This document shows positions 42,209 through 46,411 of a stretch of DNA of 64,000 nucleotides, one piece after another. The notes below the pieces were generated by a model that was not told the origin of the DNA, searched no databases, and saw only the letters and a program-made list of their open reading frames with translations. This DNA comes from Crocinitomicaceae bacterium (GTDB taxonomy: Bacteria > Bacteroidota > Bacteroidia > Flavobacteriales_D > Sanyastnellaceae), in contig PACT01000033.1 of NCBI GenBank assembly GCA_002700285.1, positions 1 through 64,000 of the forward strand, in the 5' to 3' direction. The number at the start of each line of letters is the position of its first letter. The stretch's first letter is position 1. A program made the translations under genes and the position numbers.

Positions 42209-43219
42209 ATGCTCAAAGTTGATGTCCATACACACATTATTCCAAGGAATATGCCTCGATGGACTGAGAAATTTGGCTATGGAAATTTTATTCATTTAGA
42301 AGATTCAAAGCAGGAGGGGTTTGCGCGCATGATGCAGGGCAGTACCTTTTTTAGAGAGATTGCTTCGAATTGCTGGGATGAGAATCTGCGGATGGCTGAG
42401 TATCGTGCGTCTGGTGTTGACGTCCAGGTTGTATGTACCATTCCGGTCATGTTTTCCTATGACGCAAAACCACAAGATGCACTGGAATTGGGCCGATTTT
42501 TAAATGACCACATCTCGGATTTGGTGACCAAATACCCCAAAAATTATGTGGGACTTTGTACTGTTCCTTTGCAAGATGTCACCCTTGCGATTCAGGAATT
42601 AGAACGCGCAAAATCCATCGGTTTTGCAGGTGTTCAGATTGGTTCTAACGTGAATGGTTTGAATCTCAATGAACCCCAATTCTTCCCATTCTTTGAAGCC
42701 TGTTCAAGATTGGGGATGTCTGTCCTTGTGCATCCATGGGACATGATGGGTAAGTCTCAAATGGAAAAATATTGGTTGCCTTGGTTAGTAGGTATGCCCG
42801 CAGAGATGTCTCGCGCAGCATGCTCAATGATATTTGGCGGTGTCTTTGAGAGATTGCCGAATTTAAGAGTGCTCTTTTCACATGCCAGTGGAGCATTTTT
42901 GGCGACTTTGGGACGGATTGAACACGGATTTAATTGCAGGCCAGATCTTGTCGCGATAGATAACAATGTGAATCCAAGGGCGTATTTGGGGAAGTTCTGG
43001 GTCGACAGTATCACACATGATGCACGACTTCTCAAGTATGTGATCGACATGCAAGGGACTAACAGAATCTGCATGGGTACTGATTATCCTTTTCCACTTG
43101 GCGACCTTAAATTTGGGGAGTACATGGAGAAAATGGGGCTCAGTCAGCCAGATTTAGAAAATCTTTTTCACAGTTCAGCTCTCAGTTGGTTAGATTTGGA
43201 TGTAAATAAGTTTAAATAA
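42209..43219 (+). CDS. 2-amino-3-carboxymuconate-6-semialdehyde decarboxylase (ACMSD)
   Basis: 336 residues of the amidohydrolase superfamily. It matches the known ACMSD pattern along its full length: VDVHTHIIP with the metal ligands His 7 and His 9, CTIPVMFSYDAKPQDAL near 78, GVQIGSNVN near 145, HPWDMMGKSQMEKYWLPWLVGMPAE near 180-204 with a third His ligand, FSHASGAFLATLGRI, and GTDYPFPLGDL with the fourth ligand (Asp). ACMSD decarboxylates aminocarboxymuconate semialdehyde in tryptophan and 2-nitrobenzoate breakdown, competing with quinolinate and NAD formation. No other kynurenine-pathway gene is seen in the window. It lies between the binding lipoprotein gene (31 bases) and the ECF sigma gene (7 bases). 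Confidence 0.9.
   Translation: MLKVDVHTHIIPRNMPRWTEKFGYGNFIHLEDSKQEGFARMMQGSTFFREIASNCWDENLRMAEYRASGVDVQVVCTIPVMFSYDAKPQDALELGRFLNDHISDLVTKYPKNYVGLCTVPLQDVTLAIQELERAKSIGFAGVQIGSNVNGLNLNEPQFFPFFEACSRLGMSVLVHPWDMMGKSQMEKYWLPWLVGMPAEMSRAACSMIFGGVFERLPNLRVLFSHASGAFLATLGRIEHGFNCRPDLVAIDNNVNPRAYLGKFWVDSITHDARLLKYVIDMQGTNRICMGTDYPFPLGDLKFGEYMEKMGLSQPDLENLFHSSALSWLDLDVNKFK
43191..43198 (+). promoter_or_regulatory. TAnnTTTG box inside the end of ACMSD
   Basis: TAGATTTG lies in the last codons of ACMSD and ends 28 bases before the ATG of the ECF sigma factor at 43227, a suitable distance for an internal promoter. The expected TTTG is not present, and the box is within coding sequence, so this may be coincidence. 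A 10-bp unit aaataagttt follows twice in tandem. Confidence 0.25.
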
Positions 43220-43226
43220 GTTTAAA

Positions 43227-43790
43227 ATGAGCGTTGCGCCAGAAGTCTTAGAGCTAATCGAAAAATGTAAGGAGGGCAACCGTCGGGCACAATTTGATCT
43301 TTATGGCAGATATTCAGGACTTCTTTTTGCGGTGGCGCTCAGATATACAAACACTAAAATTGATGCAGAAGATGTCGTACAAAATGCATGGGTGAAGATA
43401 TTTAAAAATTTAAATAGCTTTTCTGAAAATAATTCATTTGAGGGATGGATGCGTAGAATAGTAGTAAATACAGCTATTTCACTTTACCGAAAGGATAAAA
43501 AACACGCTAATCAAACAGATATTACAGATGTCCTTGCAACCCCTAGAGACTTAGAAGCGTCTAAAGAATGTGACTTTACCCGTGAGGAGCTTGAGAATGC
43601 AATTTCTCGTATGCCTGAAGGGTATGGTTTGGTCTTTAAACTCTACGTCATAGACGGATACAAACACAAGGAAATATCAAAAATGCTCGATATAGAAGTG
43701 AATACTTCGAAAAGTCAACTGAGCCGCGCGAAGAAATTCTTGCAAGGTGTGTTGAACAATATGGAGCAAGTGGCAAAACCTAACAAATAA
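43227..43790 (+). CDS. ECF-type RNA polymerase sigma factor
   Basis: 187 residues. Region 2 is at about 20-90: AQFDLYGRYSGLLFAVALRY with DAEDVVQNAWVKIFKNL, then FEGWMRRIVVNTAISLYRK. Region 4 is at about 125-180: AISRMPEGYGLVFKLYVIDGY with the helix-turn-helix KHKEISKMLDIEVNTSKSQL. There is no extra domain, so it belongs to the common Bacteroidota ECF group that directs RNA polymerase to a small set of promoters under envelope or nutrient signals. It is followed by the probable anti-sigma gene six bases later. Confidence 0.94.
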   Translation: MSVAPEVLELIEKCKEGNRRAQFDLYGRYSGLLFAVALRYTNTKIDAEDVVQNAWVKIFKNLNSFSENNSFEGWMRRIVVNTAISLYRKDKKHANQTDITDVLATPRDLEASKECDFTREELENAISRMPEGYGLVFKLYVIDGYKHKEISKMLDIEVNTSKSQLSRAKKFLQGVLNNMEQVAKPNK

Positions 43791-43796
43791 CTCAAG

Positions 43797-44420
43797 ATGA
43801 AACCCGTTCAAGATACATTCACATATCACATTCAAGGCCTTTATGATGGACATGAAGTTGCGCCACCACAAGGCATGAAAGATGCGGTCTTTAATCAACT
43901 AGATTCAGAAGTTTCTGGTGTGTCATCTGGCATGACATCAAAGTTGATTCTTGGAGCTGCTGTAGTGATCGTCGGGTTTGCTTGGTTCTACATGCCTGAT
44001 CAAGAAACTGTGGTTGACGAAGCGATTGTGGTCGAGCAAATTGTTGTTGCTGACGAAGCTGTTGTTGCTGACGAAGCTGTCGTTGCTGACGAAGCTGTCG
44101 TTGCTGACGAAGCTGTCGTTGCTGACGAAGCTGTCGTCGTAGAGAAAGTTGTTGAGGTTGACGAAGTTGTTGAGGAAGCAGTTGTCGCTCATGTTTCATC
44201 TGTTGAAGTTGAGAATGCCAAGACAGAATCTGTTGAAGAAAACATCGTTCTGAGTGAAGAGATTGTGAGTGAAGAGGGCTCAATACCAACAGTGGTGTCA
44301 ACACCTCCAGCTCAACCAGTTCAGAAGGTCATAGAAGATCAAAAGACCATTGAGAAAGTAGAAGAGAAGAAGGAGGCTGTGGAATGGGTGCTTCCCGCGA
44401 AATTGAAAGTCGACGAATGA
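43797..44420 (+). CDS. Probable transmembrane anti-sigma factor with acidic repeats
   Basis: 207 residues. Residues 1-48 are a cytoplasmic segment with the pattern HEVAPPQGMKDAVFNQL, like the short sigma-binding domains of Bacteroidota anti-sigma factors. A single transmembrane helix follows at 49-66. The rest is periplasmic and highly acidic: five VADEAV units at about 84-113, then more Glu/Val-rich sequence, and a last stretch with Pro and Thr. It does not resemble FecR. The assignment rests on its position right after an ECF sigma gene, its topology and the short motif; no named family is certain. Its stop overlaps the next start (ATGA at 44417-44420). Homologues may differ in repeat number. 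Confidence 0.6.
   Translation: MKPVQDTFTYHIQGLYDGHEVAPPQGMKDAVFNQLDSEVSGVSSGMTSKLILGAAVVIVGFAWFYMPDQETVVDEAIVVEQIVVADEAVVADEAVVADEAVVADEAVVADEAVVVEKVVEVDEVVEEAVVAHVSSVEVENAKTESVEENIVLSEEIVSEEGSIPTVVSTPPAQPVQKVIEDQKTIEKVEEKKEAVEWVLPAKLKVDE
44046..44135. repeat. 18-bp tandem repeat in the anti-sigma-like gene
   Basis: Five units of gttgctgacgaagctgtc, the first differing at its last base, run head to tail with no spacer. Each encodes VADEAV in the plus-strand frame. Flanking sequence on both sides is a degenerate version of the same unit. Copy-number change would leave the frame intact but alter the length of the periplasmic segment. Confidence 0.93.
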
Positions 44421-45295
44421 TTACAAATGCCTTCAAACACATAGAAGGCAATGTGTCCATTCCAAGAAGAAAACACTTGGTGCTTCTTGTACTATTGTTG
44501 GGTGGTTTTCTCCATCATGCATCTGCGGTTACAAATGAGACGCCTCGTGACACCGTTTTAATTAATGGTCAAATTATTAACATCACGGCTAACGTAGAAA
44601 TAGATACGGTTTGGAAGCGGCCTGAAAAGTCTCCATTTAGAAAGTGGATAGATGATGCAGATTTTATTGCTTTAGGTAGATTTGGTCTAGAAATTGGGCG
44701 TGATGATGTTTCTCAAAACGATTTCTATCAAGTTAAAAATGACATCAGATATCCCGAGTTGAGTCTCGAAGCAGCTCACCCCTTTGACGCATCTTTTCAA
44801 TGGTATTATCGAGGCGGTGTTTCGATTGCGTTGTCACAAATTTTTGATGTAGAAAGCGTGAACGAAAATGCCGTCGGATATGAGTGGGAGGGTCTTGATG
44901 TATTTGAAATTTACACAACAGATGTAGATGTTCTAGGCAATGAATATGACACCATCTCAGCACCAATCAGATTAACGCCTAAACTTAAACTTGCATTGGG
45001 CATGGAATGGCATGGTGTGATGAGGGCTGCTGAGGGCTGGGTGTGGGGTGCACAATTGGAGTGGTTGCCCAAAAAGAATGAAGTCGCAAAACTCTATCCA
45101 ACACCTGAACTGGGCGAACCTGATCCAGTTTCGTCTGATCAAACGTATGATATCATTCGTCATGAAACCAATGCGCTACAGGTGAGAGCCTTTACGAGCT
45201 GGTCGGCTTGGAATTCTCCATTGTTTCTGAGGGCAGAAGTGAGTTGGGCGCCAACACTATCTACGGCATGGGTGGCTTTGGGCTATAGATGGTGA
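44417..45295 (+). CDS. Probable outer-membrane beta-barrel protein
   Basis: 292 residues of unknown family from the ATG at 44417, which overlaps the previous stop by four bases. Residues 15-38 form a signal peptide (KHLVLLVLLLGGFLHHASA). The mature chain from about 75 has alternating aromatic and hydrophobic residues typical of outer-membrane strands (FIALGRFGLEIGRD, FQWYYRGGVSIALSQ, LKLALGMEWHGVM, GWVWGAQLEWL) and ends ALGYRW, a terminal aromatic residue typical of barrel proteins. With about 10-12 strands it would be a small barrel. Position suggests it is made with the sigma and anti-sigma proteins, perhaps as the outer-membrane component they monitor or control. That link is inference. 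Confidence 0.65.
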   Translation: MITNAFKHIEGNVSIPRRKHLVLLVLLLGGFLHHASAVTNETPRDTVLINGQIINITANVEIDTVWKRPEKSPFRKWIDDADFIALGRFGLEIGRDDVSQNDFYQVKNDIRYPELSLEAAHPFDASFQWYYRGGVSIALSQIFDVESVNENAVGYEWEGLDVFEIYTTDVDVLGNEYDTISAPIRLTPKLKLALGMEWHGVMRAAEGWVWGAQLEWLPKKNEVAKLYPTPELGEPDPVSSDQTYDIIRHETNALQVRAFTSWSAWNSPLFLRAEVSWAPTLSTAWVALGYRW

Positions 45296-45331
45296 AAAAC
45301 TTGTGTTTTATCTCTGTGATGTCTATATTGC

Positions 45332-46411
45332 ATGAGAATGATTTCGCTGAACACCAATATTATCAAGATAAACAAGGTTATAGGCCCGACGTCCGTGTTT
45401 TTGAGCGTGTGCGTGTGCTTGATTTTTTCAGGTTCTTTTTCTGCCCAAGTCTATGTTTTAAACGGTGGTTTTGAGATTAGTGAAACGGTGCCTAACCAAT
45501 CAGGTCAGTGGGAATTAATGAATAACTGGTCAAATGCCGGAAGTGCAGTAGCAAATCCAGATTATTATCACACATTTGGCTACAATGGCGGTGATTTACC
45601 AGAGACTCCACTTGCATATGTCAATGCCTATGAAGGATATGCCATTGCAGGTGTTGAGGTTAGTGAACGGTCTGGTTCGAATATGAGAGAGTATTTGACA
45701 GGACAATTTTCTGAACCTTTGAAAGTTGGAAAGCGTTATGAATTCTCTTTTGCGATTACAAATGGTGATGTCTATGACCACAGTTCAGCTGGTCTTGGAG
45801 TGAGCGATTTGGGCATTGCATTTTCATCACAAGCATTACAACAGACAGCGCGCGACCCGATCTACACTGAGCCGCAGTTTACACTTGCTCACATTCAATA
45901 TTATCAAGGATGGAAAGTGATTAAATTTGCGTTTACTGCAAGTGAAAGCTACAAATACTTCACGTTCGGTTTGTTTGGCGTGGAGGTAGGAAAACAAATT
46001 CTATCCTTACAAGGCCCAGGCAGGACCAAAGCATATTACTTTGTGGATGACTTCTCGATTAGGGACCTTACTTCAGAGCTTCAAACAGACATCGATCCCG
46101 ACCGAGGTGATCTGAATAATCTCTTTTCACTAGAAAGCAGTACGTTTGTTCCGACAGCATTTTCTCCTAACAATGACAATGTTAACGATATTTTCGAACC
46201 GTCATTAAGGGCGAATCGAGGCGCTGTGTTAAGGATTTTTGATCGAAACGGCGCGATGATTTGGGAGTGTACAGATGATGTTCCAAGCTGGGCAGGATAC
46301 AATCGCATTGGCGGTATTGCACAACAAGGCCTTTACTTATGGACCCTAGACGTCGTGCTAGAAGACGGGGCCATTGAGGAGATGTCTGGCCCTGTGACGC
46401 TTTTAAAATAA
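45332..46411 (+). CDS. Secreted protein with T9SS type B (gliding-type) C-terminal domain
   Basis: 359 residues. A signal peptide covers about 1-36 (the segment ending SGSFSAQ). Residues 40-240 form a beta-sandwich-like domain with features of carbohydrate-binding or jelly-roll modules (VLNGGFEISETVPNQSGQWE, FVDDFSIRDL). The last 85 residues are the gliding motility-associated C-terminal domain, with the diagnostic FVPTAFSPNNDNVNDIFEP near 271-289, then LRIFDRNGAMIWE and GLYLWTLDV. That domain marks type B cargo of T9SS, which is sorted differently from type A cargo. No enzymatic motif. It may belong to the same operon as the sigma, anti-sigma and barrel genes (36 bases downstream). Confidence 0.85.
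   Translation: MRMISLNTNIIKINKVIGPTSVFLSVCVCLIFSGSFSAQVYVLNGGFEISETVPNQSGQWELMNNWSNAGSAVANPDYYHTFGYNGGDLPETPLAYVNAYEGYAIAGVEVSERSGSNMREYLTGQFSEPLKVGKRYEFSFAITNGDVYDHSSAGLGVSDLGIAFSSQALQQTARDPIYTEPQFTLAHIQYYQGWKVIKFAFTASESYKYFTFGLFGVEVGKQILSLQGPGRTKAYYFVDDFSIRDLTSELQTDIDPDRGDLNNLFSLESSTFVPTAFSPNNDNVNDIFEPSLRANRGAVLRIFDRNGAMIWECTDDVPSWAGYNRIGGIAQQGLYLWTLDVVLEDGAIEEMSGPVTLLK

Follow-up and report, generated by a model that had tools for sequence, protein, structure and literature searches.

Several described systems come close to the four-gene unit analysed here, which occupies positions 43227-46411 of the window, the whole stretch of 64,000 nucleotides from contig PACT01000033.1 of a Crocinitomicaceae bacterium (assembly GCA_002700285.1). 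The nearest are Dma1 and Dma2 of B. thetaiotaomicron, which exert their effect via their sigma factors; in the available part of PMC13088901, the gene of an extracytoplasmic function (ECF) sigma factor adjoins that of a protein made up of a short cytosolic end, a single membrane span, a long disordered tether and, outermost, a barrel, a layout resembling that of the window. The PorA/PorXY-SigP system of Porphyromonas gingivalis is similar in that a sorting-domain protein of the type IX secretion system (T9SS) helps to control an ECF sigma factor. However, a two-component system intervenes, SigP targets T9SS machinery genes, and the system as presented in the accessible portion of PMC7712824 is without a single-span anti-sigma protein or a barrel of the window's kind. 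The SM6 promoters of Flavobacterium psychrophilum represent an ECF-type motif tied to one sigma/anti-sigma operon as well as T9SS genes, but the genes named in the excerpt of PMC9723704 belong to the T9SS machinery and not to its cargo. Finally, a type B cargo gene adjoins an outer-membrane protein gene also in the case of the PorP/SprF-like shuttles (PMC12618676, in the part available).

Compared with these systems, the unit of the window looks, from its sequence, like a split, Dma-like system. This is based on profile matches between the second protein's cytosolic end and two kinds of single-span proteins encoded next to sister ECF sigma genes, namely barrel fusions and CHU_C fusions. In contrast to Dma, the barrel is a separate gene and a CHU_C gene is part of the unit; the quartet was not filed as Dma because the barrel on the same chain, which defines that kind, is absent. 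On balance we lean towards a split, envelope-spanning sigma/anti-sigma switch that would control T9SS cargo genes along with its own operon. The features of the unit are as follows.

43227..43790, + strand: ECF sigma factor, 187 amino acids (Sigma70_r2, Sigma70_r4_2 and TIGR02937 above cut-offs; quartet clade 100/98)
43797..44420, + strand: anti-sigma-like single-span protein, 207 amino acids (follows the sigma gene; one hydrophobic span; N-terminal profile match)
43797..43931, + strand: cytosolic end of this protein, about residues 1-45, the presumed sigma-binding part (hhalign without the span)
43944..43994, + strand: hydrophobic span, about residues 50-66 (sequence, hydropathy scan)
44042..44137, + strand: 18-bp tandem repeat coding for the acidic tether segment (5.3 copies with 98% matches by Tandem Repeats Finder)
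44385..44417, + strand: strand-like C-terminal tail WVLPAKLKVDE (near-identical across the window's genus)
44417..45295, + strand: barrel-like protein with a signal-peptide-like start, 292 amino acids (family-wide relatives with DT..I.DG and E.DT motifs)
44549..44584, + strand: conserved motif DTVLINGQIINI after the signal peptide (D45 invariant and G51 nearly invariant in an alignment of 29 rows)
45332..46411, + strand: T9SS type B cargo-like protein, 359 amino acids (CHU_C above the Pfam cut-off; relatives follow the barrel in 30/30 readable loci)
46148..46393, + strand: CHU_C sorting domain (Pfam PF13585)

The original prediction for this DNA had placed four genes on the same strand, separated by 6, -4 and 36 bases, and this layout was reproduced from the positions of the open reading frames (ORFs). 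Its assignment of the first gene to an ECF sigma factor was likewise confirmed, since Sigma70_r2 (61 bits), Sigma70_r4_2 (52 bits) and TIGR02937 all scored above their cut-offs; in Pfam the protein carries regions 2 and 4 without region 3, the ECF hallmark. With the model NF058625 of the GFO_1088/PG0214 sigma family it reached 82.8 bits, below the curated cut-off of 130. A neighbouring sigma factor of group ECF21 is a further Dma trait; the matches obtained for the window's sigma factor are to general ECF models. The 35 sigma factors from quartets formed a single clade (support 100/98) in a sigma tree of 97 rows, built without one identical copy and without three loci whose downstream gene was unreadable.

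Barrel and sigma searches were performed on 60 genomes, i.e. the own genome (G000) and 59 relatives, and 34 loci with sigma orthologues of the window's family (f1) were read; L-numbers below designate loci and G-numbers genomes. The second protein and the barrel follow the sigma gene as separate ORFs in 32 of the 34 loci, in 19 genera. These 32 include L065 and L087, with the barrel cut by the contig end, and L059, with a run of N in the second gene; not counted were L069, where the contig ends past the sigma gene, and L073, where the second gene is uncalled. A CHU_C relative of the window protein comes next in 30/30 readable loci, the other four ending at a contig border. For a further f1 set of 16 loci, chosen via barrel matches, the sigma gene, the second ORF and the barrel were found in all 16, the second ORF matched the profile in 15 and the CHU_C gene was seen in 14 (one contig end, one true absence within the stretch read). 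The conservation of the four-gene order, proposed as a check of the prediction, was thus observed, and recurrence in 19 genera of the family puts the order beyond chance.

It is nevertheless conceivable, if quite unlikely, that a sigma/anti-sigma pair merely retains its neighbours within the family, with synteny inherited in the absence of a joint function. The gene bshC, which follows the cargo gene in the 30 loci with a CHU_C gene, and other flanking genes are likewise retained, as this explanation would have it. Against it, the quartet persists where the upstream genes differ (L074, L080-L087) and in L070, where extra ORFs and 1.5 kb separate the barrel from the cargo gene, and in sister loci these pieces are joined with the single-span protein in one chain.

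The second protein showed the predicted single span (residues ~50-66) and acidic repeat (44042-44137). One transmembrane helix after the N-terminal domain is also a Dma trait, and the low-complexity repeat region of the tether would correspond to the long disordered tether of Dma. The only Pfam match of the protein (E = 0.32) lies in the repeat region, and no FecR domain was found in it (Pfam, E up to 1) or in 29 relatives (E up to 0.01). Matches of the protein and its relatives to LbH_EIF2B, ANXA2R, TMEM108 and acetyltransferase-like NCBIfam families were judged to be repeat artefacts. The absence of a named family, claimed earlier for both the second and the third protein, holds, as no Pfam or NCBIfam model names either. 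A cysteine-rich tether was noticed at L080, L083 and L084.

Kinship was revealed by comparison of N-terminal profiles with hhalign. With the span included, the profile of the window's family gave 97.7% to the CHU_C fusions and 97.4% to Dma-type proteins, the latter being proteins from the window's order picked by architecture, not those of B. thetaiotaomicron; for the cytosolic end without the span, both values were 96.0%. Because hhalign E-values are uncalibrated for single pairs, controls were used: reversed alignments reached 1-2%, and 20 column shuffles each scored at most 14, against 40-61 observed. A short coiled-coil type considered as a further relative gave 44% with the span and 1.7% without it, and was rejected. 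A confident match of this protein to some family with no tie to sigma control had been named, next to missing synteny, as a result that would speak against the prediction; the opposite was seen, the cytosolic end matching proteins encoded beside ECF sigma genes, including those of Dma architecture. The designation of the second protein as a putative anti-sigma factor rests on gene position and this profile kinship.

A different role would be to serve the barrel as a linker or stabiliser in the periplasm; the sigma factor would then be regulated in another way, for instance by its abundance or, like SigP by PorX, by a two-component system. No known anti-sigma domain model matches the second protein, which would suit such a role, and SigP is activated by PorX/PorY in P. 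gingivalis (PMC7712824, available part). We hold this very unlikely in view of the 45-residue cytosolic end, encoded directly after the sigma gene and homologous to Dma-type ends.

For the third gene, an alternative longer start exists at 44384; the start at 44417 was preferred since more distant relatives within the genus (L056, L058) start at the equivalent position. The window protein itself had no match in Pfam. Among 29 relatives, OMP_b-brl was found in three (best E = 2.8e-5) and OMP_b-brl_2 in three (best E = 0.0021), with E up to 1. The profile of the relatives gave 75% to Dma-type barrels and 0.5% when reversed (hhalign). A PDB sequence search returned one match with E = 2. The protein is a putative outer-membrane barrel: the earlier claim is backed by sequence, through the few OMP_b-brl matches of the relatives and the profile match. 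With the 29-row profile, matches were obtained in 83 of the 249 genomes of the order: 79 belong to f1 and four, with weak matches, to family f9; 12 listed f1 genomes had no match. The four weak matches were not retained: a 282-amino-acid barrel-like ORF and a 222-amino-acid ORF fit the profile, the other two regions are without a fitting ORF, and no sigma gene was seen in a search at these four matches. The named records bearing the barrel (n = 4) are uncultured Flavobacteriales or Bacteroidetes.

The fourth protein carries CHU_C with 43.3 bits (Pfam cut-off 27), in line with the claimed T9SS type B cargo protein; TIGR04131 at 31.3 bits stayed under its cut-off of 35, and the protein is taken here as cargo-like. 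An AlphaFold model of the protein (5-row alignment) had a mean predicted local distance difference test (pLDDT) score of 34 and was unused. An own promoter for the cargo gene was considered and rejected, the pattern GCAAC[CT]-N15-18-GT[CT] occurring within 450 bases upstream in just 4/30 loci.

The neighbourhood of barrel and cargo genes could also be explained by two pairs under one promoter, namely a barrel-independent sigma/anti-sigma pair and a type B cargo protein with a divergent PorP/SprF-like shuttle barrel. According to the available part of PMC12618676, the type B cargo genes of F. johnsoniae frequently adjoin PorP/SprF-like shuttle genes and depend on them. In the window's family, the barrel adjoins the CHU_C gene in 30/30 readable loci. 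This explanation is unlikely in our judgement. None of 29 barrels of the window's family matched a PorP/SprF model (Pfam, NCBIfam, E up to 1), and the barrel profile reaches its 75% with Dma-type barrels. In addition, the shuttle gene lies directly downstream of the cargo gene in the same part of that paper, whereas the barrel gene here lies upstream and the unit includes a sigma gene.

The sister loci give further information on the split, Dma-like arrangement. The gene after the sigma gene was read at 66 paralogous sigma loci, selected among the matches listed from f1 and other families of the order. According to our own classing, 48 of these genes encode a single-span protein with a CHU_C end and nine encode one whose C-terminal part is long and barrel-like, while six are of the short coiled-coil type and three were unreadable. 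Two of the 48 CHU_C fusions are identical copies in the own genome. Because ten of these proteins had supplied the local CHU_C profile, Pfam was also applied to ten fusions, and CHU_C was above cut-off in nine; PKD domains were found too. Six of the nine barrel-type fusions matched a barrel family at E <=0.001, two of them above cut-off, and the nine show the Dma architecture as given in the available part of PMC13088901. In the sigma tree the CHU_C type needs three changes and the Dma type four; as these changes lie in a tree with long branches, no order of events is claimed for the fusion types. The CHU_C-fused systems share with the window, besides the N-terminal kinship, the GCAACC element before many of their sigma genes and a sorting domain of the same kind. 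They differ in that CHU_C lies within the single-span protein, no barrel gene is present, and the f1 paralogues have another spacing or -10 region.

An inner-membrane protein ending in a sorting domain at 48 of the 66 read loci means that an anchored T9SS substrate could sense export traffic, and the fused CHU_C forms suggest T9SS traffic as a possible sensed signal. This class of anti-sigma proteins might then read the T9SS itself, the anchored substrate being pulled or left idle by the traffic, and the split form would set the supply of cargo. We regard this version as possible but rather unlikely.

One paralogous locus lies in the own genome (L092:8468-14299, G000:C7) and encodes an ECF sigma factor, an anti-sigma-like PKD and CHU_C fusion and a secreted CHU_C protein of 1280 amino acids; the stretch is repeated at L093 (G000:C25:41109 on), with identical sigma and fusion proteins. 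At L094, L098, L099, L102, L108, L110, L126, L136 and L145, a signal-peptide protein follows several fused genes of the smaller CHU_C clade, with a shared stretch like 'LLYMSREDW' or 'NMTREEW'. A PorP-like motif (our own pattern) was sought in the gene after the fused proteins and was found in 0/57 loci.

Beyond the original prediction, sister genera carry a shared promoter-like motif upstream both of the operon and of T9SS cargo genes at other places in the genome. Of 22 f1 loci from genera other than the window's, 18 have GCAACC-N17-GT shortly upstream of the sigma start (200 dinucleotide shuffles of these loci: mean 0.035, maximum 1), and 13/16 loci of the further set have it before the operon. 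The f1 paralogues have other forms, mostly with 16-base spacing, or GCAACT with a different -10 region. The -35-like GCAACC is present upstream of many CHU_C-fusion sigma genes, and 17-base spacing occurs in the paralogues L089, L090, L091 and L100 (families f3 and f10). A GCAACC/GCAACT element appears common to the sigma genes of the order (L089, L090, L091, L100, L094-L153), with spacing and -10 region varying by clade.

In seven f1 genomes, GCAACC-N17-GTYTT occurs at 70 sites versus 32 for the backward pattern; G076, from a different family (5 sites versus 2), was excluded. Reading covered six genomes and the seventh in part: 57 of the 70 sites were read, two of which are quartet promoters, leaving 55, and the unread sites are ten in G067 (genus mate of G025) and three quartet promoters. 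By a crude custom script, a signal-peptide ORF of >=250 amino acids starting <=200 bases from the site was detected at 20/55 sites versus 1/30 backward sites (of 32; p = 0.0005), and at 0/18 sites with one base less spacing (GCAACC-N15-CGTCWW, five genomes; p = 0.0017 versus 20/55). With the tighter limit of 120 bases, the numbers were 17/57 and 0/30. Eighteen f1 target regions were read at full length and revealed 11 proteins with a CHU_C end (own profile), five with a type A tail and two with neither. NCBIfam placed the five type A tails above cut-off, and of five CHU_C proteins tried with TIGR04131 three were above and two just under. T9SS cargo genes are therefore downstream of at least 16 of the 55 sites. 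Recurring targets include choice-of-anchor L proteins in G028 and G014 with relatives in G019, and two further pairs between genera.

Of the 18 sites with shorter spacing, five precede the paralogous sigma gene and five a small membrane protein. The latter, of ~140-150 amino acids, was seen after GCAACC-N15-CGTC promoters at L318, L325, L333, L334 and L339 in five f1 genomes, and is likely a target of the CHU_C-fused paralogue systems.

In the window's genus, the sigma gene starts 7 bases past an amidohydrolase gene and may be transcribed from farther upstream. A short tandem repeat TAAATAAGTT (window 43203-43226, 2.4 copies) covers the end of the amidohydrolase gene and the interval before the sigma gene. 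Nine genomes of the genus contain GCAACC-N16-GTCTT at 34 sites versus 5 backward, and the own genome contains GCAACC-N15-CGTCWW at 8 sites versus 0. These sites stand upstream of secreted proteins as well as the small membrane protein; they were not credited to the window's sigma factor because they also precede the small membrane protein and because the own-genome paralogous sigma gene has this spacing. Large secreted proteins of the genus (L343, L313, L314) end in dockerin-like repeats with DxNGDG motifs, without CHU_C.

For the favoured split switch, the following course of events can be proposed. With its short cytosolic end, the second protein would keep the ECF sigma factor bound at the inner membrane, while its flexible tether and tail would span the periplasm toward the separately encoded outer-membrane barrel. 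A change at the outer membrane, either in the state of the barrel or in adjacent type IX export, would release the sigma factor, which could then transcribe its own operon and T9SS surface-protein genes from GCAACC-N17-GTYTT promoters. The fourth gene product may be a T9SS cargo protein of this kind or a sensing partner. We infer in this scheme the binding of sigma, the topology, the contact between tether and barrel, the signal, the reading of those promoters by the sigma factor and the validity for the window's genus.

Several observations weigh against this switch. Gene order alone could be inherited since the flanking genes are syntenic too (bshC 30/30). The hydrophobic pattern of the tail is similar in part of f1 and weak in the rest, the tail being weakly conserved beyond the window's half of the family. 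Pfam barrel matches were few among the 29 relatives of the third protein, single Dma-type sequences matched the barrel profile at just 0.3-48%, and the AlphaFold barrel model (5-row alignment) had a mean pLDDT of 29. Upstream of the sigma gene, the motif was found neither in the window nor in 12 loci of its genus (of these, L063 and L064 have little or no upstream sequence), which makes the target list a statement about sister genera. Eight genomes of the genus have 22 sites of the N17 pattern versus 10 backward, with just two long signal-peptide ORFs; CHU_C was matched in neither, and both products end in dockerin-like repeats. On the other side, the proposed regulator pair tied to a barrel and a secreted partner is supported by the kept gene order and by the kinship that links the cytosolic end with CHU_C-fused and Dma-type proteins.

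The suggestion that the module is undescribed can be maintained for the split form, within the open-licence literature searched, but not for the module as a whole, which is a relative of the described Dma kind. Judged by titles and abstract openings, no CHU_C-fused or split anti-sigma forms are described in that literature. To our knowledge, there are few species in which the regulation of T9SS cargo genes has been elucidated. If the split switch is real, it would provide one promoter motif and a predicted target list for such control. It would also define a family of envelope-spanning anti-sigma proteins in which the outer part is either fused, as a barrel or as a T9SS sorting domain, or encoded by separate genes, and the matching of surface-protein supply to the state of the outer membrane and export machine would become directly testable.

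The source genome is a 2.5-Mb draft of 46 contigs with a contamination value of 5.96%. SprA is present, with two near-equal matches (G000:C17:276861-284129 and G000:C4:14785-22053), which together with the doubled paralogous locus and the contamination value suggests a redundant assembly. The same genome has 21 CHU_C matches.

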